NCBI GenBank assembly: GCA_025399215.1
Contig: MU621274.1
Coordinates: 1-31,790 of the forward strand
Reading direction: 5' to 3'
DNA from: Globomyces pollinis-pini
Taxonomy: Eukaryota > Chytridiomycota > Chytridiomycetes > Rhizophydiales > Globomycetaceae
DNA length: 31,790 nucleotides
Shown here piece after piece: positions 2,410-28,330 of this stretch. Position numbers and translations under genes: made by a program. Under the pieces are notes generated by a model. The model did not search any database. It was not told the DNA's origin and worked only from the letters and a program-made list of their open reading frames with translations. Within the stretch, counting starts at the first letter, position 1. Each line of letters begins with the position of its first letter.

Positions 2410-3203
2410 CTATTTAAACGCATTTGAACAAATTCTCCATATATTTTGACAAACGCTACAGTCCATTCTGGGGAATAATTCATGAACCTTTCCAAGCAAA
2501 TGGTACACTTCTGGCATTTTACTCAAATCAAATCGCATTACTTCAGTGACAATCGCTAGACATTTGGGGCTTGATATATTATTTTTAAAATGCGATAGAG
2601 AGTTACTGAGGTATACATCCGACTTTCCTGTAGTCACTAAATGGGTTAGATAACTGGCCATCCAGGCAGTAAACATTGAAATAGTGTCAAAACATCCATT
2701 TAATCTAGTTTTAAACATTTCCTCTATCGCAAAGCTAGAGCTTGTGGAATGGGTCTCGGATCAATTCTGGGGATCATTGTAATAACGTTTTGTAACTGAG
2801 TCATTGCTCTGATCGAAATGTTCAATCGACCGAAAATCAAAATTGTGCCAGAAAACTCCACCAGCTGATTAATATATATAAGTTGTTCCGTTCGTATATT
2901 TTTTTGTAGAACTGTCAAGTTTGAAATTTGATTATCAAATTTTTGAAGGAGCATATTGATTACTTGATCAGAATACTTTGAGGAAACTTTGGATATCTAT
3001 TAGTAAATATTATTCACCAGTAAAGTCTAATATCAGTGAGGTGACTTCATCTTCCCCCTCTTCCTAGAAGATTGGTAATAGTACAATACCACTATAATTA
3101 TGATATTTGATGATTTACAATAGTTAGCAGGTTTCAATATTAGATTCAGCAAAGTATGTTGGGTTAGGGTGTTAATAATAGATTCAGCAAAGTATGTTGG
3201 CAT
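2410..3203 (-). CDS. Unidentified multi-exon protein (possibly frame-broken)
   Basis: I do not recognise the family. Reading on the minus strand from an ATG at 3203, exon 1 (3203-3090) joins exon 2 (3063-3018) across a 26-nt GT-AG intron, then exon 3 from 2986 across a 31-nt intron. The frame runs to about 2724, encoding an acidic EEGEDE patch followed by amphipathic helix-like sequence rich in Leu, Ile and Gln. A further 102-codon frame (2718-2410) of similar character ends in a stop at 2410-2412 but lies in a different frame. Joining the two needs either an intron using the weak donor near 2790 (for example CA|GTTACA, with the acceptor in CTCTAG) or a one-base indel. Exon 1 contains a shifted direct repeat, which lowers confidence in the N terminus. 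The overall look is a helical scaffold or transport-type protein of about 220-240 residues, and a pseudogene is possible. Confidence 0.45.
3141..3200. repeat. 22-bp direct repeat, spacing 38 bp
   Basis: The 22-mer beginning TAGATTCAGCAAAG occurs perfectly at 3141-3162 and 3179-3200. It falls inside the proposed first exon of the minus-strand gene at 2410-3203. Because the 38-bp offset is not a multiple of three, the two copies are read in different frames. This is either a tandem slip that altered the N terminus or a sign that the first exon is not coding. Confidence 0.85.
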
Positions 3204-3922
3204 ATTGGTTGATGTGTTCCAGATTAGTCTACATTATAGGAATGCTGAATTATAACTTGGTTATAAAGAGCGTAATGAATGGCACAATTAACGTGTATTT
3301 GACCGACATCAGTCCATCCAAATAGAATAGTTCAACGTATTCTACACATTCAATTGTTCAATTTAAGAATGATTCAAAGTATCTTCAAATCATTCTGTAA
3401 GAAACGTTTGTTAGACAATTCTAAAACATATAGCAGGTTGGATAAGATACTATAGAAATGATGCAGAGCATTTTTTGGTTTTCATTTTAATTTATAAGAG
3501 GATATCTCAACAGAAGGTCCAAGAATTGAGCATTCCAAAAATAGTCGTGGTTGTTGACTATGTGTAAGAACTGCTGAAAAATATCAAGATAATCTCGGTT
3601 AAATTAAACTCTGTAATCCCACTCAGAAGTAGCATATGTCTGGATCTAGATAGTCCCAGAGTTGGCTTAAAACATTCGCGTATGGTACTATTTTACCACA
3701 CCTTAATAAGAATTACAAAACATTTAACATCTTTAGTAATGTCAATAAGGATTGAAAAGAATTCCGATTCATGCCCAGCCCTATATAAAGTTAATTTTGA
3801 ATGTGAAGGCCAAACTTTAGAAATCGACTTGATACTATCACGGAGAAAATATGTGTTCACCCCCCTTTAAAAATACTTGATGTTAAAAGTAAAAATACTT
3901 GATGTTGAAACATTAGATTAAT
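3204..3922. other. Intergenic stretch with a short direct repeat
   Basis: No gene is supported here. A 62-codon plus-strand frame at 3682-3870 has no recognisable domain. Just after it, the 16-mer beginning AAAAATACTTGATG is repeated at 3869-3884 and 3891-3906, next to the end of the transposase remnant that follows. Confidence 0.5.
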
Positions 3923-4207
3923 TTAATCAATATATTCAGAACCATCTGATAGTGATTCATTACCTCCACTTGTTCGTGGTTTTTTCTTAGTCTTCCAACC
4001 AAGTATAGTATGACCACCACTTTTTATAACTGCGCATAGTTTATCTTTAAAAGTGCCCAAACCTTTCTTTCGGTCTTCATCGGTAAGCTCCAAGTACAAT
4101 TGTTGCATTAGCTTTGAGATTTCCTCCTTAGTTTCAGCTCTTGGCCATAGTGCCTTCAAACGCATCCTCAACATATTCCAAACTAACTCAATAGGAATGT
4201 TATCCAC
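3923..4207 (-). pseudogene. Tc1/mariner-like (IS630 superfamily) transposase, C-terminal remnant
   Basis: The frame encodes about 94 residues. It opens with a degenerate form of the [D]NPIE[L/H]VW block (here DNIPIELVWNML) that carries the last catalytic-region motif of Tc1/mariner and related DDE transposases. It continues with the usual charged helices and a KSGGHTILGW-like tail followed by a Lys-rich and then acidic end. Upstream, the frame is closed by a stop just before the motif, and I see no helix-turn-helix or earlier DDE segments, so the element is truncated to its C terminus. The codon for the apparent first residue is GTG, another sign that this is a fragment. A long hairpin lies directly upstream. 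Family assignment rests mainly on the PIELVW block. Confidence 0.6.
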
Positions 4208-4222
4208 ATTAACCTAAAAGTG

Positions 4223-4271
4223 TGGCATGCCATTAGAGATTGGCTAGCCCATATCTCTAATGGCATAGCCA
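4223..4271. repeat. Near-perfect inverted repeat (hairpin, arms of about 18 bp)
   Basis: The arm TGGCATGCCATTAGAGAT at 4223-4240 is mirrored by ATCTCTAATGGCATAGCCA at 4253-4271, with one extra base. The 12-base loop contains the self-complementary octamer GGCTAGCC. It sits at the 5' boundary of the transposase remnant, so it may be a leftover terminal repeat or a small palindromic element. Confidence 0.75.
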
Positions 4272-4500
4272 TTCTCTTGTAATTTGATTCTATCCTATTA
4301 ATGTTGAACAGAACAGGATATTTGATATTTTATTTATATTTAGGGTTGGATCGAATCGAATATTCGACAATCGAATACTAATATTACATTCGATTCAGTT
4401 GAGGTGTCGAATCTAATTCTATTACTAATATTAGTATTAGATTCGATTCGATTTTAAAATCGAGGTTGTCGAATACTAATCTAATTCTAAAAGTTTCGAA

Positions 4501-4765
4501 TCGAATATTAGAATAAATTGATCGAATATTAGATCTAATTAGTCGAATATTAGAATAAATTGATCGAATATTAAATCTAATTAGTCGAATATTAGAATAA
4601 ATTGATCGAATATTAAATCTAATTAGTCGAATATTAGAATAAATTGATCGAATATTAAATCTAATTAGTCGAATATTAGAATAAATTGATCGAATATTAG
4701 ATCTAATTAGTCGAATATTAGAATAAATTGATCGAATATTAGATCTAATTAGTCGAATATTAGAA
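4501..4765. repeat. 42-bp tandem repeat array inside the hAT element (6.3 copies)
   Basis: Six complete 42-bp units run from 4501 to 4752, followed by a 13-bp partial copy. Each unit consists of two related 21-bp halves that both start TCGAATATTA, one continuing GAATAAATTGA and the other (G/A)ATCTAATTAG. Units 2-4 carry the variant AAATCT, while units 1, 5 and 6 carry AGATCT, which shows stepwise amplification. The array lies in the left subterminal region of the transposon. Confidence 0.95.
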
Positions 4766-4887
4766 AGAATAATTATTCTTATGAAACGTTTCTAAATTTT
4801 ATTGTGTTTTAACTTAAAACCGCTAATTCTAAGTTCAAATTAAACAACTGTAGTTGAATTTTTAGATTGAGGGACTATTTAAATCGT

Positions 4888-5172
4888 TTATTCTGAATCT
4901 TCACAATCCCACTCATCACTTTCTAATTTAAGCCAGTCTCGTAGACACATAATTGCTTGTAGTGTTGGTGGGGACAAACGACTCCTATTCCATGGCATAG
5001 CTAGGCGAGCGCGCGAAAAGACTCTCTCAGATGCTGCCGATGTAGCGGGAATTGCCAATATCATCCTCGCAATTTGACTTAGTTTCGGATAGCCAGTGAT
5101 TCTAAAGTCGCATTTGGGAATGCGATACCGTTTGAAGTTGAATTTGCATATCCGATTAGACTGTGCATCAAT
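4888..5172 (-). pseudogene. hAT transposase C-terminal dimerisation domain (hATC) remnant
   Basis: The minus-strand frame from 5172 to the stop at 4888-4890 encodes 94 residues. They contain the hallmark hATC sequence: GYPKLSQIARMILAIPATSA, then ASERVFSRARLAM, SPPTLQAIMCLRDW and an acidic tail ending DCEDSE. In hAT transposases this domain mediates dimerisation and contributes the last catalytic region. Upstream the frame is closed by a stop at 5173-5175, and no zinc-finger BED or earlier catalytic segments remain. The remnant lies wholly inside the 4341-5399 element and ends about 120 bp downstream of the tandem array. Confidence 0.9.
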
Positions 5173-5423
5173 TCAATGAAGGTCTCATAATCAGAAAACA
5201 TCAGATATAGAAAGAAACAAGATAAACAAATTTTTACGAATCATTTTGTGAGGAATGAAACCCTAACGTTAGGTATTCGATTCGATTTTTCGAATATTAG
5301 ATTCGATTCGAAACTATTCGAAAAATCGAATCGAATACTAATATTAGATTAGATTAGATTCGATTTTGACATCGAATACTAATATTCGAGCCAACCCTAT
5401 TTATATTTCAAATAAGAGTTGAT

Positions 5424-6783
5424 TTAAAACAGTATATTAACCAAAATAACTAGAAAATAAGCCATAACACCAAGAGGCGATGACAGGCCATTGGACTGGC
5501 CAGGAGGTGCTTTAGGGGTCGAATCTGTGTTTTTGGTAGCAAAAGCAAAATTCCCTTCGACTTTCTGCAAATCTTTCTTAAACGATTCCAAAATGGGTGT
5601 TCCAGGCTTCGTTATTTCAAAATCGCGCATCGTCAACTCTTCTTCTTTTGTGTATTCAAACATACAGATTGCCTTTAAATTAGGGAATTCTTTGATTATA
5701 TCAGGATTAGTAATATACTGTCTCCAAAATGCTTGCTTAATAGCTAAATAGTCAATGATTATAAAACATACCCAGTTCACCTGGTCCAGGATCGAGGGAT
5801 GCAGTTGGATTTCGCAAAAAGTATTGATGAAAAGCTGCACCAGATTCAGGAATAAAAAATGGCTTGTTACGTTTTGTAGAATACAAATCATAAAAGTTGA
5901 TTTTAGCGTCATCATTAACACCTGTTAATAAATCTGAAAATACAGTAGAATTAGGTAACAAGTTTTTGTCAAAGGGGAAGTTTGGACCAAACCAATATGT
6001 GGATAAACCAACCCTAAAATAAGATGAAGGAAATTTTACCAGTCAACATATTCATCTCCTGGATAAAAAGCTTTGTAAGGATCGTCTTTACTATCGTATT
6101 CGCCATTATTATTGGTGTCTAGCAATGTAAAATCTGGACCAGTTGTAGAATTAAAAGAATATGCACCCCCTTTGAATGGATATCCAAACCCAATATTTGG
6201 AGCCCAAATAAATGCAACTCTTCCAGTACATAAAGGGTTTGCTCTAATCGCTCTGACTACATTAATCCACATATTGACAAAAGCAGTAGGTTTCTGTCCA
6301 AATCTAAACCACGAACCTAGCATGAGCATAACTACAAATAATACCATTCATTTCAGGTGCTAAACGAATAAATATTGCCCTGCCATTTTTGGTAAATCCA
6401 GCAATTTGCTTTACAAAATCACTGATTGCTTTTGGAGTAACTGATTCCAAAGTAATCGGGTATACCGTCAGATACATAATTGCATTAGTGTTAGTTTGAT
6501 CAATCAGTTGAACAGGAGGAGGGTTGTTAAAATCCAAAGGAATATTCTGAGCAAATTGAAAAAAGGAACCATAAAAACCCAATCGTTCATTGAAAGATGC
6601 AGGAGAGTCTCGTCCAGGGGTAGTATCCAACCACGAACCAAGCAATATTTTACCATCCTGAGGAACCAGAGGAATATTTTCCGCAAACTTTCTACTGATA
6701 GTTGCAGGGATTTGTTGAGAAGGAACAGATATTGTGTTGGTGGAAGCAATGAACGAACCAATAGCCAGCAATCCTTTCCACAT
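5424..6783 (-). CDS. Glycoside hydrolase family 26-like protein, secreted, probable GPI anchor
   Basis: The rebuilt gene has four exons (6783-6345, 6316-6040, 6013-5772, 5743-5424) separated by GT-AG introns of 28, 26 and 28 nt, giving 425 residues. The start is the ATG at 6783. It opens a hydrophobic signal peptide (MWKGLLAIGSFIAS). The catalytic signature RLAPEMNGSW spans the first intron, and its Glu (about residue 144) is the expected acid/base of clan A enzymes of this family. A second Glu in FFIPESGA (about residue 295) fits the nucleophile. WAPNIGFGYPF and DPYKAFYPGDEYVDW are also typical of fungal GH26-like proteins. The C terminus has a Ser/Pro/Gly stretch followed by a hydrophobic tail (VMAYFLVILVNILF) with nothing after it, which suggests a GPI signal. 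Members of the family hydrolyse beta-mannans or related beta-glucans. Substrate cannot be read from sequence, but a wall or extracellular polysaccharide is likely. Confidence 0.85.
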
Positions 6784-7103
6784 TTTAAATAAGGGAAACA
6801 ATTAACTTTTCTTATGACGTATGTATGTGGCTGGTGCACAATTGAATCTTAAGAAATTGTCACACCATTAAAACCAATCGTTGAACTAAATTCAACTAAA
6901 AATGGAGAATATGATCCATCTTATTCATTCGTAGATATGATTATACAGGTTAGATTGATGTTTATGTTATTTTCATAATTTAGTATGTAGTAATGACCAT
7001 AAAAGATCTGTATTCATGACTGGAATTTGATCTGCATGAAAGAGGGAATTTGTGCACTCTGTCATCTGTTTGGTGGTTGACTTTTCCAGTTTGACATTTT
7101 TCA
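6784..7103. promoter_or_regulatory. Divergent intergenic region between the GH26 and AGS-repeat genes
   Basis: These 320 bp separate two genes transcribed away from each other and must contain both promoters. I see no distinct conserved element. Open frames crossing it on either strand have no recognisable domain. Confidence 0.4.
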
Positions 7104-8371
7104 ATGACAGAAACAACTCCATTACTCTACTACACACCAGTTTACGCTGTACCAAAAAAACAATGCTGTTCATGTTCCCGAATCTTCTGTATTGTGTCTG
7201 TTGCTGTCTTAACTGCCATAATTGTCCTGTCTTTACCCTACGTTCCTCTCTCGGATTCTTTCTTGCCCATTGTATCCTCTTCAAATTATTCAGTCTCTCC
7301 CCAACAATCACCTTACGGTCTTCTGGATGTTCAATGCGTTGGGTTTGCTGTAAACTTCTTTCAAACTAACTCTTAGTCTTGCAACCCAAATGTATCATTC
7401 AACACTTCAATTTCTGATATTTTTATTGAATTTCAAGTTCGATCAAATGATCCAAACTGCTTAGAATATCTCAACTATGGAATAACTGAGAATGTCCCAA
7501 ATCAGTTATCCATTTACACAAAAACAACCAACCCATTTCGATTTTCAAACCCAGTAGAAGTTTGGATTTTTATCCATTTACCTACTTCAGTGACTTTTAA
7601 TGATTTTAAAATGGATGCTGAAGTTGGTCGATTGCGTTGGTTTGGAGATAAATCAAATCCAATGAAAATCAGTGATTTTCAAGTAAATACTAGGGCTGGT
7701 AGTGTTGGAATATTCGTATGCTCTATGTGATTTTAATGTAATTAGGATGTATCAACTTCTCAAATGGACATCCATACAGCTGCTGGGTCAGTGGATATCA
7801 AAGTAATCACAACAACACTAATAACAGGATATATCTAGTGACACAATCAAAATAATTTCTAAAGCTGGATCTGTTAAAACTGACGATATCACTCTGACCG
7901 ATTTGATTGATATTGACTCTAGAGCAGGTTCTATTCAATTAGACGTCAAGTTCATCAACTCATCGAAACTACAACGACTAGTGAAAGCAAAATCTTCTGC
8001 TGGATCAGTCTCTGGTAGCGTAAAACATTATCTTCAAACTGATGTTGATTCTCGAGCTGGAAGTGTGAACCTATCTTTAAAGCCTTTAACAGATGTTACT
8101 ACAGAAACAAAAGTATATTCGTCTGCTGGAAGCGTACATGTTAAAATCGTAAACACAATTTGTTTTTATCGTTTAGGATGATTATAAAGGAAAGTTTGAT
8201 ATCCATTCAGTTACTTCGTCATTAAAACTACACGGTAAAGATATCCATGTGACAGAATCAAGTGGAAAGTTTTCGAATTACCGAAAGATTGGATATGTGG
8301 GTGATGGAACCAGCCAGTCTACATTCACATCTGATTCATTGGCAGGTTCTACCAGGGTCAAGTTTGACTGA
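7104..8371 (+). CDS. Single-pass membrane protein with AGS-repeat beta-solenoid (adhesin/DUF4097-like)
   Basis: Five exons (7104-7349, 7377-7715, 7746-7802, 7828-8148, 8177-8371) join across introns of 27, 30, 25 and 28 nt to give 385 residues. Every intron is phase 0. The N-terminal cytosolic segment starts MTETTPLL, which includes an acidic dileucine motif (ETTPLL) of the kind that sorts proteins to lysosomes or vacuoles. A Cys-rich stretch and one transmembrane helix follow (about residues 25-47), then an ectodomain. From about residue 188 the ectodomain is built from repeats of roughly 20-25 residues centred on (R/A/S)AGS(V/I), seen at least seven times: TRAGSVGIF, TAAGSVDIK, SKAGSVKT, SRAGSIQL, SSAGSVSG, SRAGSVNL, SSAGSVHV. 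Alternating hydrophobic residues suggest a parallel beta-helix, as in DUF4097-type putative adhesins. Function is unknown. AATAAA is present at 8396, shortly after the stop. Confidence 0.8.
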
Positions 8372-8527
8372 ATTTTATGATTTGTTTTTTTGTTTTAATA
8401 AACCTCAAGTTCGTTTTAGTTGAAGATTGGTCGGTTTGTGTTGAATTTCATTTTCTTAGTTTGAAGATTTCAACGTTGCGAATACAATCCCCAATATGGT
8501 ACAAGCAATCTATCCTAACCACAGTCA

Positions 8528-8791
8528 ATGTCAGATAAATCACTAGGATTTCTAATCTGGACACTCTCTGTTACGTTTTTCATTTACTATTTCATTTGGT
8601 TATTCATCACAGTATTCACCACAAACTAACCATAGCCATTTCTACCAAGTAATCACATGCTACAGAGCGCATTTCTAGATTACGAATTAGGGATATTTAT
8701 ACCTGTCTTTCTGTTTGTTTGTGCTGTATCATTAATTGGATTTTATCTTTCCTTTATTTTGATCAAGGCCAGTGCAGTCAAACGTTCTTAG
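8528..8791 (+). CDS. DPM2: Dolichol-phosphate mannosyltransferase regulatory subunit DPM2
   Basis: Two exons (8528-8611 and 8636-8791) join across a 24-nt intron and encode 79 residues, close to the usual 80-85 of the family. The protein has two transmembrane helices (about residues 6-28 and 48-70). They are linked by a short loop PFLPSNHMLQSAFLDYE that matches the PF(I/L)-x-S-x-H-x(5)-FL layout of DPM2, with a basic C terminus (AVKRS). DPM2 is an ER membrane protein that stabilises the dolichol-phosphate-mannose synthase complex and also associates with the GPI-GlcNAc transferase. It therefore serves N-glycosylation, O-mannosylation and GPI anchoring. A short upstream ATG frame (8495-8545) overlaps the start codon in another frame and could damp translation. 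Identification rests on size, topology and the loop motif. Confidence 0.8.
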
Positions 8792-14158: not shown

Positions 14159-14439
14159 ATGAGTAGTAAATCATTCCTCTTTGATATATGTGATTTCCAT
14201 ATCACTTATGTTGGATGCTCAAATAGACAACAGTTTTTGATCAAGGATTACGTGATGTTGGGACTCTGCTTGCTAATCGTTTTGACGTATGGCGGTTTGG
14301 TTATTCAAAAGCTTTTNNNNNNNNNNTTATAAAAGACCCAAGTTCACAATTCATTATCAGCATACTTTGTGATGTTTACTTTTGGTTGTGTATTTACGGA
14401 TTTTCGTTTTATCTACTATTCTCAGGGAAAAGATCTTAA
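14159..14439 (+). CDS. Seven-helix membrane protein, paralogue B (interrupted by assembly gap)
   Basis: The first 158 nt (14159-14316) encode the N terminus and the first helix. They are identical to the start of paralogue C at 14699. Ten Ns follow. After the gap the sequence resumes in the last part of the same gene (from VIKDPSSQFIIS to a stop at 14437-14439). It aligns with the end of paralogue C at roughly 89% by eye and terminates slightly earlier. Compared with paralogue C, about 737 nt of coding sequence are missing, so the ten Ns stand for a gap of unknown, probably much larger, size. The frame is consistent with an intact gene if the gap has the paralogue's length. Whether the gene is really complete cannot be decided here. 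Confidence 0.7.
14317..14326. other. Assembly gap (10 N) within paralogue B
   Basis: Ten unknown bases mark a scaffold join. Alignment with the neighbouring paralogue predicts about 737 bp of missing sequence, so the length is a placeholder. The sequence left of the gap is identical to the neighbouring copy over its last 188 bp, while the sequence on the right is diverged. Confidence 0.95.
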
Positions 14440-14698
14440 CAATTAAGTTTTGAATAAACTTGAAATTTCCACTAAAGTAGTATTGAAAAAACTTTGGACA
14501 TTTACAAGTCTTATTAAATGGAACCTTTTAAAGGCTTATATCTTTATCACAAACAGATTAGTGTTCAATAACAATCAATAGTCTCACCTAGCAATTTCCA
14601 ATAATTTGCTAGAAGAAGCGATAAGAGATATGGTTTGTACTTTTACATTCCACGTCTGACATCGAAATAACGCGTTTGAGTTTTTATCAAATTCAACA

Positions 14699-15712
14699 AT
14701 GAGTAGTAAATCATTCCTCTTTGATATATGTGATTTCCATATCACTTATGTTGGATGCTCAAATAGACAACAGTTTTTGATCAAGGATTACGTGATGTTG
14801 GGACTCTGCTTGCTAATCGTTTTGACGTATGGCGGTTTGGTTATTCAAAAGCTTTTCATGAATCTTAGAAACAAACGAAGTCTTTTGAAGAACTGGAACC
14901 AAATGGACACATTTTGTATGATATCAATGCTACATGGACTGTTTCGTACGATATTCTATGTCAATATAGTATATATCTATCATGGGGACTCAAAAACCAC
15001 CTGGTCCAACGAGAGAATGGAGCAATACGTGCGAACAAGTATTTTCATGGAATTGGTTCTATTCATGCTCGGGTCGCTTGCTGCTGCCACATTTATTGAC
15101 TGCTATGTTCAAATTTCAACTAGCATGCTGTTGTATCAACCCATCGATATCAGAGGGAAAAAAATAGATTTGGCAAAACTGATTCGAGTACTAAGACTAG
15201 TTATTCTGATTGTCTATATTATCTTAGCATCAATCTGGGCTACTAAGGGCGTCACCTCTGGGATGGAAGATTATATGCACTATCGAAGGGCCTTCTACTG
15301 CTCTATTGCATTCGCTTGTTGGTTTATTTCCGCACCAATTGTGTTTTCCGCTGGCCGCCGTTTAGTGTTCAATATGATAAAGAATAGAACTTTAGCAGAT
15401 AGCGTTCAATCAAAAGTTACTGCGGAACAATCCGCATCGGTTGGAAATGAAATCAATTCCGCTAAAAGTCATCCAGTAAGAAACAAAGACAAAATGCAAG
15501 TCTCATATATGAATTTTGCAATTTACTATTTTACATTCATTTTATATGGTTGTCTCGGGCTATATTTCTTCGGCTTGATTGTAGGTGTGGAAGTTATAAA
15601 AGACTCAGGTTCACAATTCATTATTAGCATAGTTTGTGACGCTTACTTTTGGTTGTGTATATACGGATTCTCGTTCTATCTACTATTCTCAAGACAAAGA
15701 TCCCAAAAATAA
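14699..15712 (+). CDS. Seven-helix membrane protein, paralogue C
   Basis: A single exon of 337 residues, about half identical by eye to paralogue A. Seven hydrophobic helices are predicted in the same order. The extracellular-type N terminus carries the two conserved Cys of CDFHITYVGC, helix 1 starts DYVMLGLCLL, helix 2 contains MLHGLFRTIFYVN, the GKKIDLAKLIRVLR loop precedes helix 4, and the last helix has CDAYFWLCIYGFSFYLLF. A hydrophilic Ser/Lys-rich loop of about 60 residues separates helices 5 and 6, longer than in paralogue A. The gene is a tandem duplicate of paralogue B, in the same orientation with start codons 540 bp apart as assembled. AATAAA overlaps the end of the gene (15710-15715). 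A sensory or receptor role fits the topology but is inference. Confidence 0.88.
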   Translation: MSSKSFLFDICDFHITYVGCSNRQQFLIKDYVMLGLCLLIVLTYGGLVIQKLFMNLRNKRSLLKNWNQMDTFCMISMLHGLFRTIFYVNIVYIYHGDSKTTWSNERMEQYVRTSIFMELVLFMLGSLAAATFIDCYVQISTSMLLYQPIDIRGKKIDLAKLIRVLRLVILIVYIILASIWATKGVTSGMEDYMHYRRAFYCSIAFACWFISAPIVFSAGRRLVFNMIKNRTLADSVQSKVTAEQSASVGNEINSAKSHPVRNKDKMQVSYMNFAIYYFTFILYGCLGLYFFGLIVGVEVIKDSGSQFIISIVCDAYFWLCIYGFSFYLLFSRQRSQK

Positions 15713-16709: not shown

Positions 16710-17594
16710 TCTAAATGTGGAAATTTGTTGGGTTTAGGTTTGGACGTGGATTCCGCCACTTGTTTGTTACACACAAAATATCCAAGATATTGCAATGTAC
16801 AATCCGAAAGAGAAATTTTTGGGATTAATTATACGTTAAAAATGTTAGGCATAGGCTATATCAGGTAATTTGATTCAAAGAGCAACTGAGTATTGGATTT
16901 TAACCAACAAAGCAGCATAAGCAAGATAAGCAAATGCAATATTAGGGGTAAAAACCCACATGATGATCTTAAATATGATTCATATTAGATGTTTTTTTTT
17001 GCGTATAATATTTAATTAATTTCAAGGTGGTAAACTGTCATAATTGGTAAGTCACTCACCAAGTCAAACATTTCAACAGATCAGGCCTTATTGCTCTCAA
17101 GCTAATACAAGAAGAATTTAGATTTTTGCATCCATATAAATTGTCGAAACCGCGTTTTCGACTGTTCTAGCCAAATTCGTACATCAACTAGAATCTATTG
17201 GCTGCACTATCCAAGGGTTAGGATATACAATCATTTTTACGATTTTAAAAGAAGAGACAGTAATCTAGTGAAAATCTAAAGTTATTAGGTTAATATTTAA
17301 CCTCACAAAACATCAATATGTCTTATTCGTGGGTATACATTCTTCGAAACCTTTCTTAACTTTCTTTCCTTGAGCATTAAGCGTTATAAGAATGAACTTG
17401 TCTTTTATCAGTTGTATGGATAATTCAGTACACTATTTATAACTACCTATATATTTCATTTACATAATACGCACAAAGCATTTGAAATGTACTTGATGAT
17501 TTTTGTACAATATCGACAGATGAAAAGGCAATTCTGCGATGCCTATTGTTCACAAACGTATGAAGTTTGTGACATCATTCACGTTCACTTTAAA
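16710..17594. promoter_or_regulatory. Divergent intergenic region upstream of CFAP61
   Basis: About 885 bp separate the minus-strand DUF2306-like gene from the plus-strand CFAP61 gene. I see no gene in it. An in-frame extension of CFAP61 up to an ATG at 17487 is open but adds 36 residues with no counterpart in the family, so it is more likely 5' leader. Confidence 0.45.
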
Positions 17595-20500
17595 ATGAAT
17601 TTTAGAAGAGCAGATGTGAAAGATATTCCGGGAATTAAACAATTAATCAAAGGAGGATTTGGAAGAGATGATATGGAAAGAGCTTTAAAAAGACGTTACG
17701 GAGATGGTTTTAGTTTGAATTACTTGATGTAACGAGTTAACCATTCCTAATCGATTATAGTGATACATGCCCACTCTCACTCGTATCTCTAAATAATAAC
17801 GATGAAATCAATGGATTTTTAGCTCTATCAATGAACCCACCGGAGCATTTACCACTTGTGACTGTGCGAGATCCTCTAGGAGAATTGCCAGACACGCAAT
17901 TCTATTTACCAACTAGTGATTGGGATACTTGGATAAAGCAAAATTATAAATGTCCCAATGCTAAGGTATATGAAACCTAAGTTTAAACCTATAGATTAAT
18001 AACATGGCATTTTTGAATTTCTTTTGTTCGGATCAAGATTCGGCAATTTCTATCTTTGAAAAAGCATTCAGTATTATTTTCGATATGCTACCATCGCTGC
18101 AAATGATTGCATACTTTCTGCCAGATTCATTGATTTTATTCCCTCCGTTATCTTCTAACAGGCCGATATTACCATTGGACGAAAAGACGAAACTAAGTCG
18201 ATGTAGATTGAAGAAAACAAAGATTTCAAGCAATTTTTTTACAGAGTGTATTGCAAGTACTCAATGTACGTATCCATTTTCACTTCATGCATGCCATCGT
18301 AAAGAGTTTTGCCCTTCTTTTGACGTTCGATTGGCTAGAGTTGAAGATTGCGATGATTTAGTTCCTATTCTTAAACGAAATCATGTATGTATCAGATCTT
18401 TTTTTAAACTTTAAACAGTTACTTGATAATGGTCATGAAGATCAGTATGTTTCCAGTTTGTTGGAAACAGAAAGCCCAACAGTCAAGTCTTTGGTAGCAG
18501 AAGTAATTAACCTATCAGCTCAGTTGTTTTAGGTAGATGGACAGGTGGTAGCATTCATGAGTATAAGTCGTGACGTTGACCAGGAAAAGCTCAGAGAATC
18601 TTATAGATTGCAACCTTTTCATCAACTAATCAAAAGTAAAATGAATATGCTTATATGTTTAGTTCCACAGACCAGCACTCAAGTTAATGGGAAACAATTA
18701 TCAATCTTATTTGACAATTCTATTAACATCAGCAAATCAAATCATGTAACCTCCAAAGAAAATGTTGCTGAGCCAGAGACACAACCAGATATAACTCCAG
18801 AGGATAGTATTGAAGATGACATAGTGCCAGAAATTGAAGAACCATCTGAAGAAAAATTATCGCAAAGCAATGTGTTTATAGTGACTTTAATGTGTGTCGA
18901 AACCAAATATTCTGCTTATGCATCACAATTAATTCAATTTGGTTTTCAAATTTGGCCTGATTTAGAATATTGTGCACTTACTTTAGCACCTGGAACCCCC
19001 GAAACTTCACTGATGCGATATTGCTCTCCAATTCCTAGCGTTTCACCTGAAATAGAGTAAAGCTTTACCTCTTTTTTATTCTAGGGATCGTTTATATTTG
19101 ACAAACCGATTTACTTTAAAGGAGCCTGTGGAAGTTAAGCTAGCTACGCCTCAGCATTTGAACAGCATTCTAAATCTTGCGGTATCTATCAAGGGTATGA
19201 AAGAGTTCCGCCAACTTGTTACATCACAATTTACACCTGATCCTGAGAGTGAAGAAAAGAGTTTAACATATGTGGCATTAGCAGCTGGCCAAGTAATTGG
19301 AGCTGTAGTCTTAAGCTATTGCAACGAAAGAACTGCAGAAGCACTACTCGACCAATACGATGTCGCCAGTTTCTTCAACGTGAATTGGAAACCTATTGAA
19401 GGCAATTATTCAATCGCAAAGTATCTTTTGATCAATCCATTGTTTGAATGCCAAACAAGATATATCTGCTTCGAAATCATGAGGATGCTGAAATTGAATT
19501 GTATCCTTTATCCCAAGAATCAACTTGTGGAAGATTTAGCAACTAAAAGATTGACAATTCGAGAATTTATTCCAGTCAAACCTAGACGAATGTAAATTGT
19601 TGTGCCTTAACAATTCACAGGATTGAATACCCAAATAACTTGCGAGATGATATTCCAGTACCACCAAACATCCTCGGAAACCTGCAAATGTTCTCAATGC
19701 AATCGTTGTATGAACCAAGAGTAAGTCAACTGGTGTTTGATTCTATAGATGGTGGTGGACACGAGAATAGTGGTAGTGGGTGGATCAGACACGGGTATAT
19801 CATTTTTAGAAACCCTCATTTACGTAATCGAACATTTACCAAACTAATCGGCAGATGTCTCATATACAATTTTCCAACTTGACGCTGATATCAAATGATG
19901 GTATACCTGATGTTGTGGATGGTTGGTTAGTAGATAATCGTTCCTACACGTCACTATCGTAAATGCATTCTTTGTCAAATCTAATTTTTGCAGTTTAAAG
20001 CAACATGCAATTGATTATTACGCCAGGATAATCACCGATTCCACTGTTGAATTACATCGAGAACATAAAAAGGTTACAATCTCATCTGAGTCAACGATAA
20101 AGTGATTTCATACCTGATTCTTATTTTTAATAGATATGATTATTTGGTTCTTTGTCCTGGGTTGCAATACTACTCGGATATCTTGGAACCAGGGTTTGGA
20201 GCGGTTGATGGAGTTTTTGCAGTTAATAATCAAGAATTGCCAGACTTCATGAGTTATATTGAATTCAATAAAGCTAGTCAAGGAAAAATTGTGATGTATA
20301 GGATTATATATTCACTAACGGTCTAGATATGGTCGAAGTTTACAGGCATATATGGCGATTGAATGTAAGTTAGTTAACCTTTAAATGCGTTAGATTGTAT
20401 AATGAATCAAATTCCCCCAGCACGTATCTATTTTGTAGACCCAACTACTAGTAAAGGATCAAGTGCTTTTCCCAAAGAAGCAGTGAATGAACTTGTTCAG

Positions 20501-21638
20501 GAAAAGTTAAAATTACATGGAATACCTGTACATCAAAACTATACATTTGATTCATATCAAACTAATGATGGTTATATAACTGCAATTTCATTTCTGGTAA
20601 ATTTTAAAAATCTAACGATGATTAGGATAAAAATTCCCGAAAGGTTTTTGTATCCAATGTTGATATTTTTCTATATGCTGACCAGAAATCGATCCATATC
20701 AATTCATTCAAAACAATCAATGATGCATGCTTAGTCTATGATGGTGCATTAGTCATCGACAAAGATTTCCGAACAACGGATCCATTTATGTAATCATCTT
20801 GAACGCTAACAAAAATATTAGATTTGGAGCTGGAACAGCAACCAAATATGCAACAGCAGAAAAAACCGATTGGCTACCAAGTATGTACAGCTCCAAAGAA
20901 ATTGGAAATCGATTGGCATGGGTCATGATGCATTTCTTTGATCCAAACGTTCATCCATTAAGTTTAACAGAAGAAAAAAGGAAATATACATATAGAGATT
21001 CATTAAAACGAAGAGCCAATTTACCTGGTGGGCTCAAATACTTTAGCTTTGACATGCCAAAACTACCCAATTTCAAACCTGATCCATTGGTTCGTTATGT
21101 ATTCTCACACTTAGTCACGAAACTTGGAAATAACTGTTCCAAATATGGAATATAGTTGTATTCATGTTGATCAACGAGGATATATCCAAGCATTTGAATA
21201 TATTGGTCCACGGGATATTCCAATGTCCAATCTAGAATGTTTATATTCAAGACATGAAAAATACTTTAACAGATTGATTGCTAGATTTGATGAAGGTGTC
21301 ATTCCAGACTTTATTCCGTAAACTTTTAATTTATCATTTATTTTATTATAGGTTCTTCAATGAAACTTGGGCATTATGCTTATTCCATGATCGATTCCCA
21401 GCTTTTATACAAAAATCTCGTGCAGATGGTTTAGTACTTGAAAATGAAACTACAAAGATTATGGTGGAATTGAGGAAAAATCATAAAAAGGTATTATTAT
21501 AGTTTTAATTGTTTGTAGATGAACGAACGTGATTTAGAAGCTATTTATGATAGATTTGACCAATCTCCCGATCGTGAAGAATGGAATAAGTCCGTGTTTG
21601 ATTATCTTCTCAAAACTCAAGTATTTAAACAATGGTAA
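17595..21638 (+). CDS. CFAP61: Cilia- and flagella-associated protein 61
   Basis: Eighteen exons (17595-17728, 17761-17965, 17995-18384, 18419-18502, 18533-19056, 19085-19591, 19621-19720, 19749-19823, 19855-19958, 19994-20101, 20134-20295, 20327-20364, 20394-20596, 20626-20789, 20822-21089, 21115-21317, 21352-21490, 21519-21638) join in one frame across 17 introns of 25-35 nt, giving 1175 residues, close to the roughly 1200 of animal CFAP61. The N-terminal half has acetyltransferase-fold-like segments (FDVRLARVEDCDDLVPI, VKLATPQHLNSILNLAV). At about residues 649-674 a dinucleotide-binding strand-loop (TRIVVVGGSDTGISFLETL) opens a Rossmann-like domain. The C terminus contains the family hallmark ETWALCLFHDRF. 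CFAP61 belongs to the calmodulin- and spoke-associated complex at radial spoke 3 and is needed for flagellar beating. Its presence implies a motile flagellated stage. It converges with MLH1, with 114 bp between the two stop codons. Confidence 0.95.
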
Positions 21639-21752: not shown

Positions 21753-24700
21753 TCAGCATCGTTCAAATATCTTGTACAAATCATGTAAACTAGCCAAATT
21801 CCGTACCACACCATCCTCTACCCACTTACCCAATCCAATCACATTTCGTAACGCTGGAAACAACATATGATTTACCTCATATTCATATCGTACCAGATCG
21901 AGTTGGGGTATATTCTGGAATTGATAGAAAATTGATAATTCCGTACTGACAGCTTCAAAGCATGGTTTTTCCTCTTGCCAATTCACCTATAATTAAGATT
22001 GTAAATTTACATGTGTGGCTAGACGTAAAATGAACTCAGGTAGTTTAACCATATTAGGTATATAATCGGTCAATAGAACAGGTAAACCGGTTAAATATCC
22101 TAAAATGAGATTATAGACAAAACTACCATTAGAATCAATACGAATGGAAAAATATTCAAGTAGCATTGCACTCTTTTCTATCAGCAATTCCATAACTTCT
22201 TGTGCCATTTCATCCTTCCCTGCCATACGTTCCTCATCGTACAAGCCATCCTGAGTATCCAACATAATAATCACACATTCTTTCACACACACCGGTGTCA
22301 TTTCAATTAGCCCAAAGTTTGAAACCCCTTTTAAGATCGTTTGATAAAAGAATTGTTGACTGGTTTAAGCATTTCATTATCTACCTTATGTCTACATAAT
22401 TTACTAAAAGAAGATTGGTTTGATGTTGTATCAATGCTAATTGTTCATTATAATATCCTACAAAAGTATGTTCATGAAAAATTTCCGTCAACCCTACTTT
22501 TAGAATGTCAGAATACCTTTATGCTCCTGGGCACTTATCTCACCAATAAGCTCAAGCACACTGGTAAGATGAATATCAATCCATTGTTTGGGCACTTCAA
22601 TTTCAACTACTGTATCTACTACTGTAGAGACGCTTGAATCAATATTTTCTGCATCATAATGTTTAATATCAAGCACATCGGAAGGTTTCATGGAATTTAA
22701 GGTTGTATCAGCGCTACTGGATTGTTCATGGTAGTCTTCTATGGTCTGCTCCACAGATCCAGATATTCTTTCGCCAGGACACACTATTAGCGTATTATCT
22801 TCAATATCGTTTATCTGTGTGTCAATTACATCAGCATTAATATCAGAAGTTTTCAGTTCGTGAATAAGCTCTATGCGCTGTTTTTTATTCACATTTAAAT
22901 GTGCAATATTTTTATCCACAAATGAGTCTAATGTTCTTGTTCTGCTATCTGTTCGTACCAGCAAATGCGGCTTGCTACTGTTTTGGCTTGATTGCGATTG
23001 CTGAGATTGACTGCTGATTCCCATATTGTTATTAAAGGATTTATCTAGCGAATTATCTACTTTAGTCATACCTGGAAAGAATTAATAACGATTAAGCGGT
23101 GCAATTCGTGTAAGTTTTGGATACAACCATATATACAAGTAGTCAGCAACGTGACATATCGAAAAAATTTAATCAAGTACGTACCAGGTTTAATAATTGA
23201 TATGGAACTTGCACCAAATACAGTCTAATCTTAAACCACCAAAACGCAAACCTGTACTGGAAAACTACGCGACCCACTGTGATCTTTCAGCTTTTCCTCT
23301 ATTACGTTGCAAATTTCCATCACAATCAAGTCCTCTTTTAGGAAATGTACTTGTGATTTAGTAGGATGAACATTCACATCAATTAAATGTGGTTCGATTT
23401 CCAATGAGATATATATGATATAATGGGCTTGTTTTGATAGGTATTTGGTGTACAGTTGGTCAATGCTTTTCTTAAGGCTGATACAATCAACAAGTCTAGC
23501 AAGTTTAGCAATTGGTAATGATTGAGAATCTATAATATAGAAAAGAACAAATAATGAAACATAAGATATGTATCAAAAGTACAAGAGAAATATTGGGTGA
23601 ATAGTAAATTCAAATAATGTGAATACAACTGTTCACCATGCATAATGTAGAAGAAATAATGCGAATTTTTAAAGACAACCTTTGATTGATAAAAAGCAAA
23701 ACTGCTTTTCGTTTACAAACTGCATTTGGAACTGAAAAGCAAGCATGTAATTTGTAATGCAAGATAGAGCTACTATGTGACAATTCAATCAACTGTTTAG
23801 CAAGGTTCGAGCCGTAGATACGAGTGATGGCGTCAATGGTATTGGAAGGGATGGTATTGAGGTCGAGGTGGTTGGATCCGTGCTGATGATTAGGAATCAA
23901 AGATACCTTTTTGCAAGTGAATTTAATGTGAGAATTGTGAATTGAATATTTTTGAATTACATCTGATAGTGAGAAACTAATTGTTACCCAGGATACGAGA
24001 ATACTCTTCATTAACATTCTTAAATGCCTTTTTCCTATTTTGCTGGTTATAAAAGAGGTCCTCAATCTAAAGTTATTGTCGAGTGTATAAGTACTGTGAT
24101 AGTGGTACCAATATTTCCAGCAGTAGGTTTTAAAGAATTTGGAATCATTTTTCCGTCCAAGTATGCAGCTCTTTGGTAAGTTTAATATATAAGAATACTT
24201 ATAAGCAAGGTTTGAGTCTTTAGTTTTCGTAGAGACAGAGAGATGTGCGATATGAGAAATTGAAGCCAATGCTTCACCTCTGAAGCCATAAGTATTTAAA
24301 GACTTTAAATCTACGATTGTTAGCATTTGGTGTACACAGAAATATATAAAACACATCCAGTAATTGAAATGCAGTGTGAATACGTCGAACACAGGTTCAG
24401 CAAATCCAGTTATTTAAAGTCCGTTTTGTATTTGTAAAAGAAAGTTTTGATAATTACCATCAAAACAAGATAACTTTGAGGTGGTGAAGCGTTCACAGAG
24501 CAATGGTAAATCATCTTTGTGGATACCACTATAGATAGCAGTTAATAAACAAATAGATACCTAAGATTAGATATTATATAGTTAGTACGATCCATTATCT
24601 GATATAGAGATAAGTTTGAGACCCTAAGGATTAAAATGGATATTTGATACGGCATTAGTGAATGAGAGATGAATTGTTGTAGCACTAGCATCTATAGAAT

Positions 24701-24880
24701 TTTCAATGAGTTCTTTGATAGCATTTGAAGGTCTTTGTATAATCTATGGTTAGTTAGGGTACTTTGTAAGTAATTGAATAAGGAACAAGGTAATTATGAT
24801 AGGATTAGAATTACTTCGCCAGCAGCAATTCGGTTAATTGTAGTCTCATCCAATTTCCTGATTCTTTTTTGTCCGGTCAT
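21753..24880 (-). CDS. MLH1: DNA mismatch repair protein MLH1 (MutL homologue)
   Basis: Sixteen exons run from the ATG at 24880 to 21753: 24880-24815, 24743-24651, 24623-24589, 24528-24458, 24310-24199, 24170-24095, 24066-23988, 23962-23907, 23882-23680, 23495-23252, 23224-23185, 23071-22517, 22493-22385, 22359-22127, 22099-22011, 21986-21753. They join in frame to 764 residues (human MLH1 has 756). GHKL ATPase motifs are ELIENSIDA (Glu33, Asn37), SDNGSGI (62-67) and NTYGFRGEALAS (94-105). DVNVHPTK and LLFINQRLV follow, then the VRTDSRTRTLDSF linker, and the C-terminal dimerisation domain ends in the MLH1-specific FERC. MLH1 pairs with PMS1 or MLH3 partners in mismatch repair and crossover resolution. 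Introns range from 23 nt (22494-22516) to 184 nt. One 60-nt intron (24529-24588) splits exactly into two abutting GT-AG units. The usual PAR/ATR-type motif after LFYN reads QQNRKK here. Confidence 0.96.
24529..24588 (-). other. Stacked double intron in MLH1 (28 + 32 nt, no exon between)
   Basis: The intron between MLH1 exons 3 and 4 is 60 nt. On the minus strand it reads as two complete intron-like units, 24588-24561 and 24560-24529, joined AG|GT at CTTAG|GTATC. Unit 1 begins GTACTAAC and has TCTAAT near its end. Unit 2 begins GTATCT and has TTAAC before CTATAG. Excision of both is needed to restore DNGSGI. Confidence 0.75.
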
Positions 24881-25060
24881 GAACTTCTGAAGCCAAAGTT
24901 GTAACCCTAACTCATTCGTAACCCTAGACAAAGTAGTACAAAAGAAATGATTGCTAGTGTTTTATTGGTTACTATCATTGATTTATGGCTAACTGTTAAT
25001 GCCCTCGTGATATAATAAACTGTCTCCTGTTAATGCCCTTGTGCTATAGATGTTATCATC
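24881..25060. repeat. Short intergenic region with a direct repeat at the chitin synthase 3' end
   Basis: Between the MLH1 start and the chitin synthase stop, the sequence around CTGTTAATGCCCTCGTGATA (24991-25010) recurs as CTGTTAATGCCCTTGTGCTA at 25027-25046, 36 bp apart. The second copy contains the last codons and stop of the chitin synthase (minus strand). This is a small 3'-end duplication, and the short gap to MLH1 must hold the MLH1 promoter. Confidence 0.65.
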
Positions 25061-28000
25061 ATGTCAATCGCTTCCTTCCTCTCTTGAACTACACTACCAT
25101 ACCGTGCACTTAACAAATCTCGTATCTCCTTGCGCGTCTTCTGACTTAAATCATACTCTCGCATCATACTCCGTAATTCATTCTTCATCTCTTCTTCACT
25201 CACTTTCATAATTTCTTCATCTTGCATCACTTCATCTTCTTCTGGACTCTTTCCAACCCTATTATGTGTATATCGTATGGATTTGTCGGACTCAGTACCA
25301 AATTCTGATAAAGTTCCATTCCACTGCCATTTTATCATCTCCATCTCCCCTTCAGTCACCTTTGATTACTCAATAATGATCATACCTAAACGTTAAAGCT
25401 GCCATTCTCATACCTAAACTTAACTTGCAAATGATTTGTACCTAAGATGAGTATTCATTCAATCAAATACCGATTCTGGTTCAAATGATGTCTCTTCTTC
25501 TTCCTCAACCTGTCTTGTGTTTCCCCATGTGAAATCATCAAAGTGCCAAAATGAATACAAAGGGACGAAAAATCCAATAATTGGCATCGCCAGTACATAC
25601 TAATATCAAATAAGTATCCTTCATACAATAATCATCCATCCTATTTGTGCCCATGCTCGTTTCGTTACAAAAATTAATGCTTGTAACCTATGCATCAATA
25701 CAGAAACATTGTTACCTAGTTGTTAAAAAACAGCAATTCACCTGGAAAGTTAACAAAAAAAATGGTAACCTAAGATGATCAGTGGAAGCTAGGATACCCA
25801 TAAGCAGCAGACAGCATCACAATTGAAACAACAGGAAGTACATCCGACTGAATAACAATCGAATATATAATATAAATAATATACAACAATCCAGCAGGTT
25901 GTACCACTGTTGAAAACAAATCCAAAAGAATAACAAACCTCATCGAAAACACACAACATCCACATAACTGTTCAACTGACAACAAGTCAAATAGATTATG
26001 CACTGTCGAATTAATCCATCGCCTTCGTTGTGATAATAAAACACGCCATTGATCAGGTACCACTGTCCAACATGTTGCCATACCATTAAACCTTAATTTC
26101 AACCTTGGGAAATTTTTGAGCATTAAAGTTGTCAAATATCGATCTTCCCCCAATTGCAATAAATTTTTTAAATGAAGAGTGTTTATGTTGGATTCACTAT
26201 ATGCGCTGGTAATACGATGTGAGATGAGTATTGGTGTAGATTGTCGTTTTTGAGTTTGCTTGATTCGGTACATGCAGAAACAACCTGGCAAACATGTCAC
26301 TGCGCCAAACATAGATTCAAATGACTTGGATAGATGATGAGATATAAAATATTCATACACCTACACAGTTAAGTAGTCAAAATCTTTGATATGATTTCAG
26401 TTTTAAAAGTGATAATCCCAATGACGAGGATTCATCATCATTATGAATACTGCGATTAAATTGTGATTGAGATAAATGAATAAAGACGACTAATAATACT
26501 AGTGGGGAACCTACCTGAATCATAGTCACCCAACTATCACGATCGTTCAAGATCAACGTCTCTCCACATATCCCCATCACTTGCACATCATGTACCATAG
26601 ACGATATTAAATGGGTTAAAGCCGTCGTATTCACGATGGTATCCGCATCTACCATCAACAGATACTCAAAAAGACCAGGATTGTAACCCAACTGTTGGAA
26701 TTTGTTGCATAGAGTACGTTCTAAAGGATTCATTGCTTGGTTGTAATGGATTCGTGATAAAAGGCGCATCAAAATCATTTGGCTATCACGTTTACCTTTA
26801 CAATATCAATTTATTGTGGTTACCTAAAGAATCAATATTGGAATGTAAACTTACCTCGATTTCCAGGTCGAGTTGGCTCTTTTCCATTTCCAATTTTAAT
26901 TACAAATATAAATGGAATTGATTTCCCATTCTTCATGAACAATCCCGAGTACACTATTCCACGATTGATCTTCAACTCACCCTCACCGATACTTTCAAAA
27001 GCATCAGACCTAATTTGGGAATCTGGTTCCAAATCCAATACTTGTAAGATAATCTCTGGGGTTGGTATATCATTCCCCGATCCTGTCACCAAACCTACGA
27101 TCAACATTTCAAAACAAACCATCGGCCACGATAAATAGAAACTTGCGGGTTGAATCGTAATCTAATGATAAGATAGAATCCAATGTATTTTGAATTGATT
27201 CGAATGATTCTGTATAGCAAGGTACGAGTACAATAACAAATTTATCACATTGCTCTGGATCGCCTTGATAACCACATCGAATTGCAGCCAGAAATTTACA
27301 AACAATGACTGATACCAACAAGATTGTGAAACTTAACAACAAATAATTTGAAATTTGACATTTCAATGAATTTCGATTATCTACCGTTCCAATATAAAAC
27401 AAATTATTTATGCATTGAAAGTATAATGGTGATTTCGGATCTGTACGTGTAATCTGTAACCATTGTTTCGTAGCATCTGTACCATAGAAATTTGAAAATA
27501 ATGCTTCAACAGATGGACCCAAGAATCGAACTCTGGAATTGAAATAACTGGAGATGTCATAGACGTTATCTCCAATGATGATCAACCGATTATTAGCACT
27601 GGAGATTTTTTGGATGTATGATATACTCCATGCCACTCTGGCTCTTGCATATCGGTTCATATATTCCAGGTATTGTTTCGGAACCCCTTGACTATCATTG
27701 CTTTTGTGTGCATAGATTGGTTTTGATCGTTTCGATAGATTATCCCAAGTGGGATCTGGAATGGGCAACCCTGGACAATACCTTTCAAATGATTGTTGTT
27801 TATAGAATAGCGAAGAAATGTCTTTTCCTAGTAAACTTTCGAATTGATACTCCGGAACTTTATATCCTTTATCATGGTTCATAATCAATTCAGATATCTC
27901 ATAGACACGGCCGTATCCAAATACCCATGGATCTTTAATTGTTAATTTACCATACCATCATACCTTTAATATCTGTTCGAGTTGCGATTTCTGATACACT

Positions 28001-28330
28001 GTACACATTCTGATCAGGACACACCACTCGTCCCAACCCAATAATGAAAAATAGTAAAGATGCTGAGATGAGAAAGATGATAATGCATATGGCGACCTAA
28101 AAAATCAGAATATCATTACCCACCTTTTCACGCCATGCCATTCTGACTTGATTTGTCTTCATGCCGGATACTCGTAGACAACAGGATGGGATATACCACG
28201 TCAAACACCAAGTACAACAGAGCCATCTACACCTAGCTCGAGTCATTTTCTTCTTTTTTGGCCTTGGAATTTTCTCTTTCACATTGGTGTTCACTTCTAT
28301 TATTTCATCAGTATCATTTTCAGTCGCCAT
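25030..28330 (-). CDS. Chitin synthase, class V/VII-like (cytochrome b5-like, CHS2 and DEK_C domains; no myosin motor)
   Basis: Nine exons (28330-28124, 28096-27964, 27932-27120, 27094-26855, 26795-26515, 26360-25798, 25687-25627, 25599-25471, 25359-25030) give 918 residues from the ATG at 28330. After an acidic and Lys-rich N terminus come two hydrophobic segments around VRMAWREKV, a cytochrome-b5-like region ([16 protein letters not shown], about 229-244), another helix, and the processive GT2 domain: [15 protein letters not shown] (380-385), GNRGKRDSQM, VDADT (513-517), GEDRYLTT (629-636) and QRRRWINS (669-676). C-terminal membrane helices, an acidic tail ETSFEPES and a DEK_C-type helical domain at the last 60 residues follow. 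The enzyme polymerises UDP-GlcNAc into chitin at the plasma membrane. Many relatives carry an N-terminal myosin motor, and none is present upstream here. Three introns (25360-25470, 25688-25797, 26796-26854) are stacks of abutting mini-introns. The 154-nt intron at 26361-26514 is not. Confidence 0.95.
25360..25470 (-). other. Stack of four abutting introns in the chitin synthase gene (29+28+28+26 nt)
   Basis: The 111-nt interval between exons 8 and 9 divides without remainder into four GT...AG units on the minus strand: 25470-25442, 25441-25414, 25413-25386 and 25385-25360. Junctions are CTTAG|GTACA, TTTAG|GTATG and TTTAG|GTATG, and the last acceptor is CAAAG. Units 2 to 4 each have a branch-point-like motif near the end (GTTAAG, TTTAAC, AGTAAT). 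The host exons read EPES|VTEGE in phase 0. Confidence 0.75.
25688..25797 (-). other. Stack of four abutting introns in the chitin synthase gene (28+28+26+28 nt)
   Basis: The 110-nt interval between exons 6 and 7 divides exactly into four GT...AG units on the minus strand: 25797-25770, 25769-25742, 25741-25716 and 25715-25688. Junctions are CTTAG|GTTAC, TCCAG|GTGAA and ACTAG|GTAAC, and the last acceptor is GCATAG. Branch-like motifs are CTGAT, GTTAAC, TTTAAC and TTGAT. The exons join as AAYG|LQALIF, as expected for the family. Confidence 0.75.
26796..26854 (-). other. Stacked double intron in the chitin synthase gene (31 + 28 nt)
   Basis: The 59-nt interval between exons 4 and 5 divides exactly into 26854-26824 and 26823-26796 on the minus strand, with junction TTTAG|GTAAC. 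Removing both units restores the conserved GNRGKRDSQM motif. Removing only the first leaves an early stop. Confidence 0.75.

Follow-up and report, generated by a model that had tools for sequence, protein, structure and literature searches.

Parts of two papers (PMC7138796; PMC5639578) describe the stwintron as an arrangement in which one intron sits within a splice element of another, so that the internal intron must be removed first. The stwintrons of Ascomycota ([D1,2], [D5,6] and [A2,3]) hold several spliceosomal introns at one position, have been proposed to be recognised by intron definition and call for more than one splicing reaction. Drosophila ratchet points are located mostly in long introns and, in the part of the source available, reportedly depend on a cryptic exon downstream (PMC8605326). 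In these ratchet points, or zero-nucleotide exons, an acceptor and a donor are juxtaposed as AG/GT (the slash marking the cut), so that the first step would restore a donor. Intron gain is described in sections of further papers as proceeding by DNA repeat expansion in the Cryptococcus gene CNN00420 (PMC2395259) and by tandem duplication in the potato RdRp gene (PMC4974935), and introners are described in part of another source (PMC9860276) as a single family copied to many sites.

The window analysed here is a 31,790-nt stretch of the chytrid Globomyces pollinis-pini (contig MU621274.1). It contains a chitin synthase gene in which introns of 59, 110 and 111 nt are stacks of two, four and four units of 26–31 nt. 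The preliminary description had read these as complete minimal introns joined through zero-length exons, un-nested and in this respect unlike stwintrons; the tiling proves to be exact at all three introns, and the same anatomy holds genome-wide, with up to 10 units among the stacks that were read. The stacks are a variant of the known complex introns. They share with the Ascomycota stwintrons the presence of several spliceosomal introns at one position, but their units are complete and lie side by side, the order of removal would be free and up to 10 units of ~28 nt may follow one another. The juxtaposed AG/GT is shared with Drosophila ratchet points, but the next acceptor is located 24–35 nt away, the whole stack spans 59–285 nt in those read and the next unit starts at once with no evident exon. 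As in the Cryptococcus and potato genes, the duplication of repeated DNA appears to make introns, with similar signs in the PHYHD1 stack and in an array at locus L031; introns that abut without an exon are not reported in the portions of those two papers that were available. Introners also supply many new introns per genome, whereas pairs of units from different stacks score low here, a comparison limited to 16 stacks. No report of abutting minimal-intron arrays was found among the matches listed in the open-licence PubMed Central literature.

The chitin synthase is class V-like, and with whole stacks spliced out its product contains Chitin_synth_2, DEK_C and Cyt-b5-like domains (Pfam PF03142, 5.7e-201; PF08766, 2e-10; PF00173, 1.3e-07). 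The public G. pollinis-pini chitin synthase (P0001) is identical to this spliced product over its full 714 residues. Of the eight intron positions, three are occupied by the stacks, four by single introns of 25–31 nt and one by an untiled intron of 154 nt (Table 1). Every unit of the three stacks starts with GT and ends with AG with a remainder of zero, and AG/GT is juxtaposed at all seven internal junctions. The GT and AG of each unit are uninterrupted and the cuts fall exactly between units, which is not the interrupted arrangement of a stwintron. By eye, no clear nested solution was seen for the 154-nt intron or for an untiled 71-nt intron in the neighbouring MLH1 gene.

The junctions were placed on an alignment of 11 chitin synthases, composed of the window product and 10 others, one of which is the identical public model P0001. 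The 59-nt stack splits the codon of G465 within the motif GNRGKRDSQ, which is invariant in all 11 proteins, and the 110-nt stack splits the codon of G746, which is invariant together with Y745. The 154-nt intron lies between Q558 and V559 within the conserved TMIQVYEY. The 111-nt stack is located in a variable stretch between the catalytic domain and the DEK_C tail, where the join is identical in P0001. A gene finder with zero-length exons forbidden recovered the 110-nt stack as a single intron of 110 nt. Tandem Repeats Finder reported no repeat at the stacks of the window; short-period copies of one sequence are thereby ruled out there, and the units of the chitin synthase stacks are not recent copies of one another, as had been proposed.

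Table 1. Positions of the stacks and of the related introns and genes (window coordinates unless a contig or locus is named).
Feature	Location	Strand	Units or size	Basis or junction
Chitin synthase gene, class V-like	25030..28330	-	918 aa, 8 intron positions	own gene model and Pfam
Chitin synthase stack of 2 units	26796..26854	-	31+28 nt: 26824-26854, 26796-26823	exact tiling; exons ...GAG / GTAAACG
Chitin synthase stack of 4 units	25688..25797	-	28+28+26+28 nt: 25770-25797, 25742-25769, 25716-25741, 25688-25715	exact tiling
Chitin synthase stack of 4 units	25360..25470	-	29+28+28+26 nt: 25442-25470, 25414-25441, 25386-25413, 25360-25385	exact tiling
Chitin synthase untiled intron	26361..26514	-	154 nt	gene model; no AG/GT unit tiling
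Chitin synthase single minimal intron	28097..28123	-	27 nt	gene model
Chitin synthase single minimal intron	27933..27963	-	31 nt	gene model
Chitin synthase single minimal intron	27095..27119	-	25 nt	gene model
Chitin synthase single minimal intron	25600..25626	-	27 nt	gene model
MLH1 stack of 2 units (fourth window stack)	24529..24588	-	28+32 nt: 24561-24588, 24529-24560	unit-chain scan
MLH1 untiled intron	24744..24814	-	71 nt, internal AGGT absent	joins NRIAAGE to IIQRPSN
PHYHD1 stack	contig C12 (L027)		10 units, 285 nt, two units identical	joins LIFK to QPDIGGE as in 2opw, gapless
GDSL lipase stack	contig C7		8 units, 228 nt	gene finder with zero-length exons forbidden, low gene score; Pfam
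MCM8 stack	contig C10		7 units, 190 nt	gapless junction against 7wi7, left flank poorly conserved
Protein kinase stack	L031		5 units	joins FLHDL to GLIHTDLKPEN; gapless against CHK1; matches CHK1 and CLK chains
WD40 protein, two stacks	contig C2		4 units each; second re-read as 31+29+30+30
MED14 stack			4 units	Pfam identification
Stack	contig C4		5 units	own gene model only
Stack	L045		3 units	own gene model only

Removal of the MLH1 stack gives ISDNGS/GIHKDDL, and over 103 residues this product aligns without gaps to the MLH1 structure 4p7a, another short intron having been taken out of the query by eye. Outside the window the longest stack that was read interrupts a PHYHD1 gene; like the chitin synthase stacks, those of PHYHD1, the GDSL lipase, MCM8 and the protein kinase are tiled exactly. 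The public model of the PHYHD1 gene (P0121) contains 19 extra amino acids that hand translation assigns to two of the ten units; five other aligned homologs lack them. This model appears to retain two units as protein, whether through a slip in annotation or because units are partly retained, and gene annotation is possibly misled by stacks. The protein kinase stack was found in an unbiased stretch (L031). The stacks at C4, L013, L024, L045 and L022 have the authors' own gene model as their only basis; the gene at L022 is presumably DOP1-like. In the 200-kb sample outside the window stacks are few, being composed of the 5-unit stack (by protein alignment), a 3-unit stack (by gene model), and one 3-unit and some 2-unit chains that lack a clear context. 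Among the 30 L-loci, 19 were examined, with overlapping ones skipped, although one gene is common to L003 and L005. A stack model covered the TAGGTA site in 13 of the 19, several with weak gene scores, and no stack model covered it in the other six (L001, L009, L013, L014, L016 and L030). On contig C4, positions 31807–32069 hold six AGGT triples in register over ~260 nt, perhaps one stack of about nine units. On contig C451 a 5.5-kb stretch (3089–8587) contains TAGGTA triples in five rows, read as several close stacks on both strands.

The units have the features of minimal U2-type introns: GT...AG ends, a YTNAY motif near the acceptor and a narrow, short length. In a 232-kb sample, made up of the window and a further 200 kb, the short introns called by our own gene finder have a modal length of 28 nt and nearly all fall within 23–35 nt, which bears out the proposal that a unit has the size of an ordinary single intron. 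Most units had also been said to carry a branch-like YTNAY, and with its A at -7 to -15 this motif is present in 74 of 99 distinct units (shuffled mean 36.8, maximum 50, in 500 shuffles). These units were listed by a pattern search that set no demand on the sequence between the boundaries. The motif was found in 41 of 50 single introns and in 10 of 24 pairs outside the period of 25–33 nt, some of which are perhaps real units of 34–36 nt; these 24 rows supersede a first hand-picked off-period set (6 of 17 rows).

Statistics by position within the stack were computed on 16 stacks with 71 units of 24–35 nt (59–285 nt per stack); the stacks at L002, L010, L012 and L017 and the first at L024 were left out for having two units or a weak gene score. 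The mean lengths of first, internal and last units are 28.4, 28.3 and 28.3 nt against 28.4 nt for single introns (units versus singles, Kolmogorov–Smirnov p 0.98). Donor scores are 3.31, 3.24 and 3.44 in the same order against 3.76 in single introns (first versus rest, p 0.91), acceptor scores are 3.64, 3.32 and 2.86 against 3.65, the last units being weakest, and branch scores are 3.10, 2.91 and 2.82 against 3.17 (last versus rest, p 0.46). YTNAY is present in 16/16 first, 31/39 internal and 13/16 last units. The units of stacks are a little weaker in their signals than single introns, with branch scores lower at p 0.033 in a first set of 14 stacks. These comparisons are to be read with the caveats that the stacks were partly chosen by models scoring the same motifs and that the lack of a difference at n=16 per group is weak proof of equality.

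The genome searched comprises 18.5 Mb in 459 contigs, and the counts of repeat patterns are lower bounds. Pairs of TAGGTA number 423 at spacings of 10–40 nt and 193 at 41–71 nt; within the former, 269 fall in the seven spacings of 25–31 nt and 154 in the other 24. The reversed pattern is flat at ~17–19 pairs per spacing throughout (130 at 25–31 nt, 575 at 10–40 nt and 510 at 41–71 nt), whereas TAGGTA peaks. Reversed controls outnumber TAGGTA in absolute counts (575 and 510 against 423 and 193), so reliance is placed on the peak in spacing and on triples. TAGGTA triples occur 62 times at a period of 25–31 nt, against one for the reversed pattern and none at a period of 37–43 nt. AGGT triples in register occur 479 times at 25–31 nt against 85 at 37–43 nt, and triples of the reversed AGGT pattern are equally frequent at both periods (627 and 636). 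Internal AGGT at unit spacing is thus above chance genome-wide, a check that the preliminary description had proposed. The first 100 of the 479 on-period rows, on contigs C1–C34, fall into 63 clusters, of which 16 contain at least two overlapping rows; on the same contigs the off-period rows number 17, in 15 clusters. From these counts, with chance triples included, some hundreds of stacks are estimated to be present in the genome.

Within the 232-kb sample, window included, chains of at least three units have 9 ends at the loosest threshold, against a mean of 0.25 in four dinucleotide shuffles and one in the reversed sequence. Chains of at least two units have 34 ends, against 11.75 in shuffled and 46 in reversed sequence, so that two-unit chains alone prove nothing. 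Raw spacing between AGGT pairs in the sample has a slight bump only (33 at 26–30 nt, other bins 16–30). A gene finder with a flat prior on intron length called 97 introns longer than 40 nt in the 232 kb, three of which were tiled against 0.17 expected from shuffles; little weight is given to these calls, since most of the 97 are probably false and only three are tiled. A gene model with an equal prior for spacer exons of 0–8 nt called seven spacers of zero length and four others (1, 4, 6 and 6 nt). Five of the seven are within the chitin synthase, and one of these is wrong, as it would delete a conserved exon; the spacer test therefore says little outside the window.

That the stacks are AGGT occurring by chance at intron spacing, or errors of the gene models, is a disfavoured reading and very improbable. 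The 85 off-period AGGT triples, the abundance of two-unit chains in reversed sequence and the wrong zero-length call are in keeping with it, but the contrast between periods (62 against 0 and 479 against 85 triples), the junctions within conserved protein motifs of chitin synthase, PHYHD1 and MLH1, and the identity of the public chitin synthase all speak against it. The probable reading is that each unit would be a complete intron, taken out singly and in any order, with stacks growing by tandem duplication. An intron-defining spliceosome would pair the nearest GT and AG across ~28 nt and excise each unit separately. Once a unit is gone, the next GT again follows directly on an AG or on the end of the exon, the remaining units can still be spliced, and the order would be free. 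The preliminary description had proposed either sequential (recursive) splicing or skipping from the first donor to the last acceptor; a fixed sequence is not required, since the removal of any unit leaves all other AG/GT junctions intact.

One-step splicing that pairs the outermost donor and acceptor, treating the stack as an ordinary intron of 59–285 nt whose internal units are roleless leftovers of duplication, is considered unlikely. It is mechanically possible, as the untiled introns of 154 nt (chitin synthase) and 71 nt (MLH1) in the same fungus indicate; the protein evidence shows removal of the whole stack and no more, and some stacks, such as that of PHYHD1, are visibly young duplicates. 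However, internal units match the first and last in donor, branch and length although 47 of 55 neighbouring pairs have no detectable similarity, and within duplicate families chosen by hand the splice signals have changed less than other positions. The boundaries themselves point the same way. Of the 193 TAGGTA pairs counted at 41–71 nt, 84 were listed, and 58 of these are tiled by an internal AG/GT. The 26 untiled pairs comprise 14 in the 13 spacings of 50–62 nt and 12 in the other 18 spacings (p 0.24), without a clear excess over the ~11 expected by even spread, which favours there being few if any pairs that have lost only the middle AG/GT. Idle internal boundaries in old stacks would be expected to leave a clear excess of such spacings; none is clear, which indirectly favours the removal of stacks unit by unit. 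A young age of the stacks could also account for intact boundaries. A stochastic mixture, in which any donor is used with any downstream acceptor, isoforms arise when some units are retained and the length of a stack is in effect neutral, appears quite improbable. Since removal commutes, every complete route would give the same mRNA, and the two units apparently kept by the public PHYHD1 model may be a real isoform or an annotation slip, but this mixture predicts relaxed internal signals, which are not clearly seen.

Growth of stacks by exact tandem duplication is suggested by a minority of them. Among the 16 stacks, 8 of the 55 adjacent unit pairs (in PHYHD1, L045, L022 and L013) score above the 99th percentile for pairs taken across stacks, and none of the three chitin synthase stacks is among them. 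The claim that units are not recent copies thus stands for the chitin synthase and fails as a statement about all stacks, since these eight pairs show tandem copying. The lack of detectable homology in the remaining 47 pairs leaves tandem duplication unestablished for most stacks. Where AGGT is present at both junctions, it forms a 4-nt repeat spaced by the length of one intron, which would favour exact duplication, after which the units would diverge with selection preserving their splice signals. In four hand-picked duplicate families, changes are found at 4 of 80 signal positions and 26 of 143 other positions (p 0.007). A downstream exon starting with GT is suggestively commoner after stacks (7/16) than after single introns (8/50, p 0.037). 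As the gain or loss of a unit leaves the mRNA unchanged, the length of a stack can drift.

Exact duplication between AGGT junctions would give a concrete route for introns to multiply in place with the protein unchanged. Should the units be removed singly, intron definition over ~28 nt would suffice for long chains, and recursive splicing could do without long introns and without a cryptic exon. The stacks would also offer a natural case in which many orders of splicing lead to one and the same short message and no exon has to be defined. A broader proposal, about evenly poised between right and wrong, is that a spliceosome tuned to introns of ~28 nt would hide exact duplication in place from the mRNA, and that these introns behave like a minisatellite in which every repeat works: up to ten or more units per stack, perhaps several hundred stacks in the 18.5-Mb genome, single units removed in free order and each kept functional by selection. 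On this view the stacks would form a class of their own among complex introns, with a direct and ongoing route of multiplication.

Some other features were observed at L031 and in the window. At L031, positions 1664–1948 on the reverse strand hold an array with a period of 40 nt and 6.8 copies, the unit of which is a 15-nt exon plus an intron of 25–30 nt; by eye the array reads as Arg-Tyr-Asp-Asp-Arg repeats. It is apparently a product of the same duplication process with the exon included. In the window, a multi-pass membrane protein gene is seen by eye in two copies, a shortened one at 14159–14440, with ten N at 14317, followed directly by an intact one at 14699–15712; the gene has been duplicated locally, and the assembly has a gap there. 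An AT-rich tandem repeat with a unit of ~42 nt was seen by eye at 4500–4790. The gene at 17594–21638, which we take to resemble the flagellar protein CFAP61, contains many introns near 28 nt.
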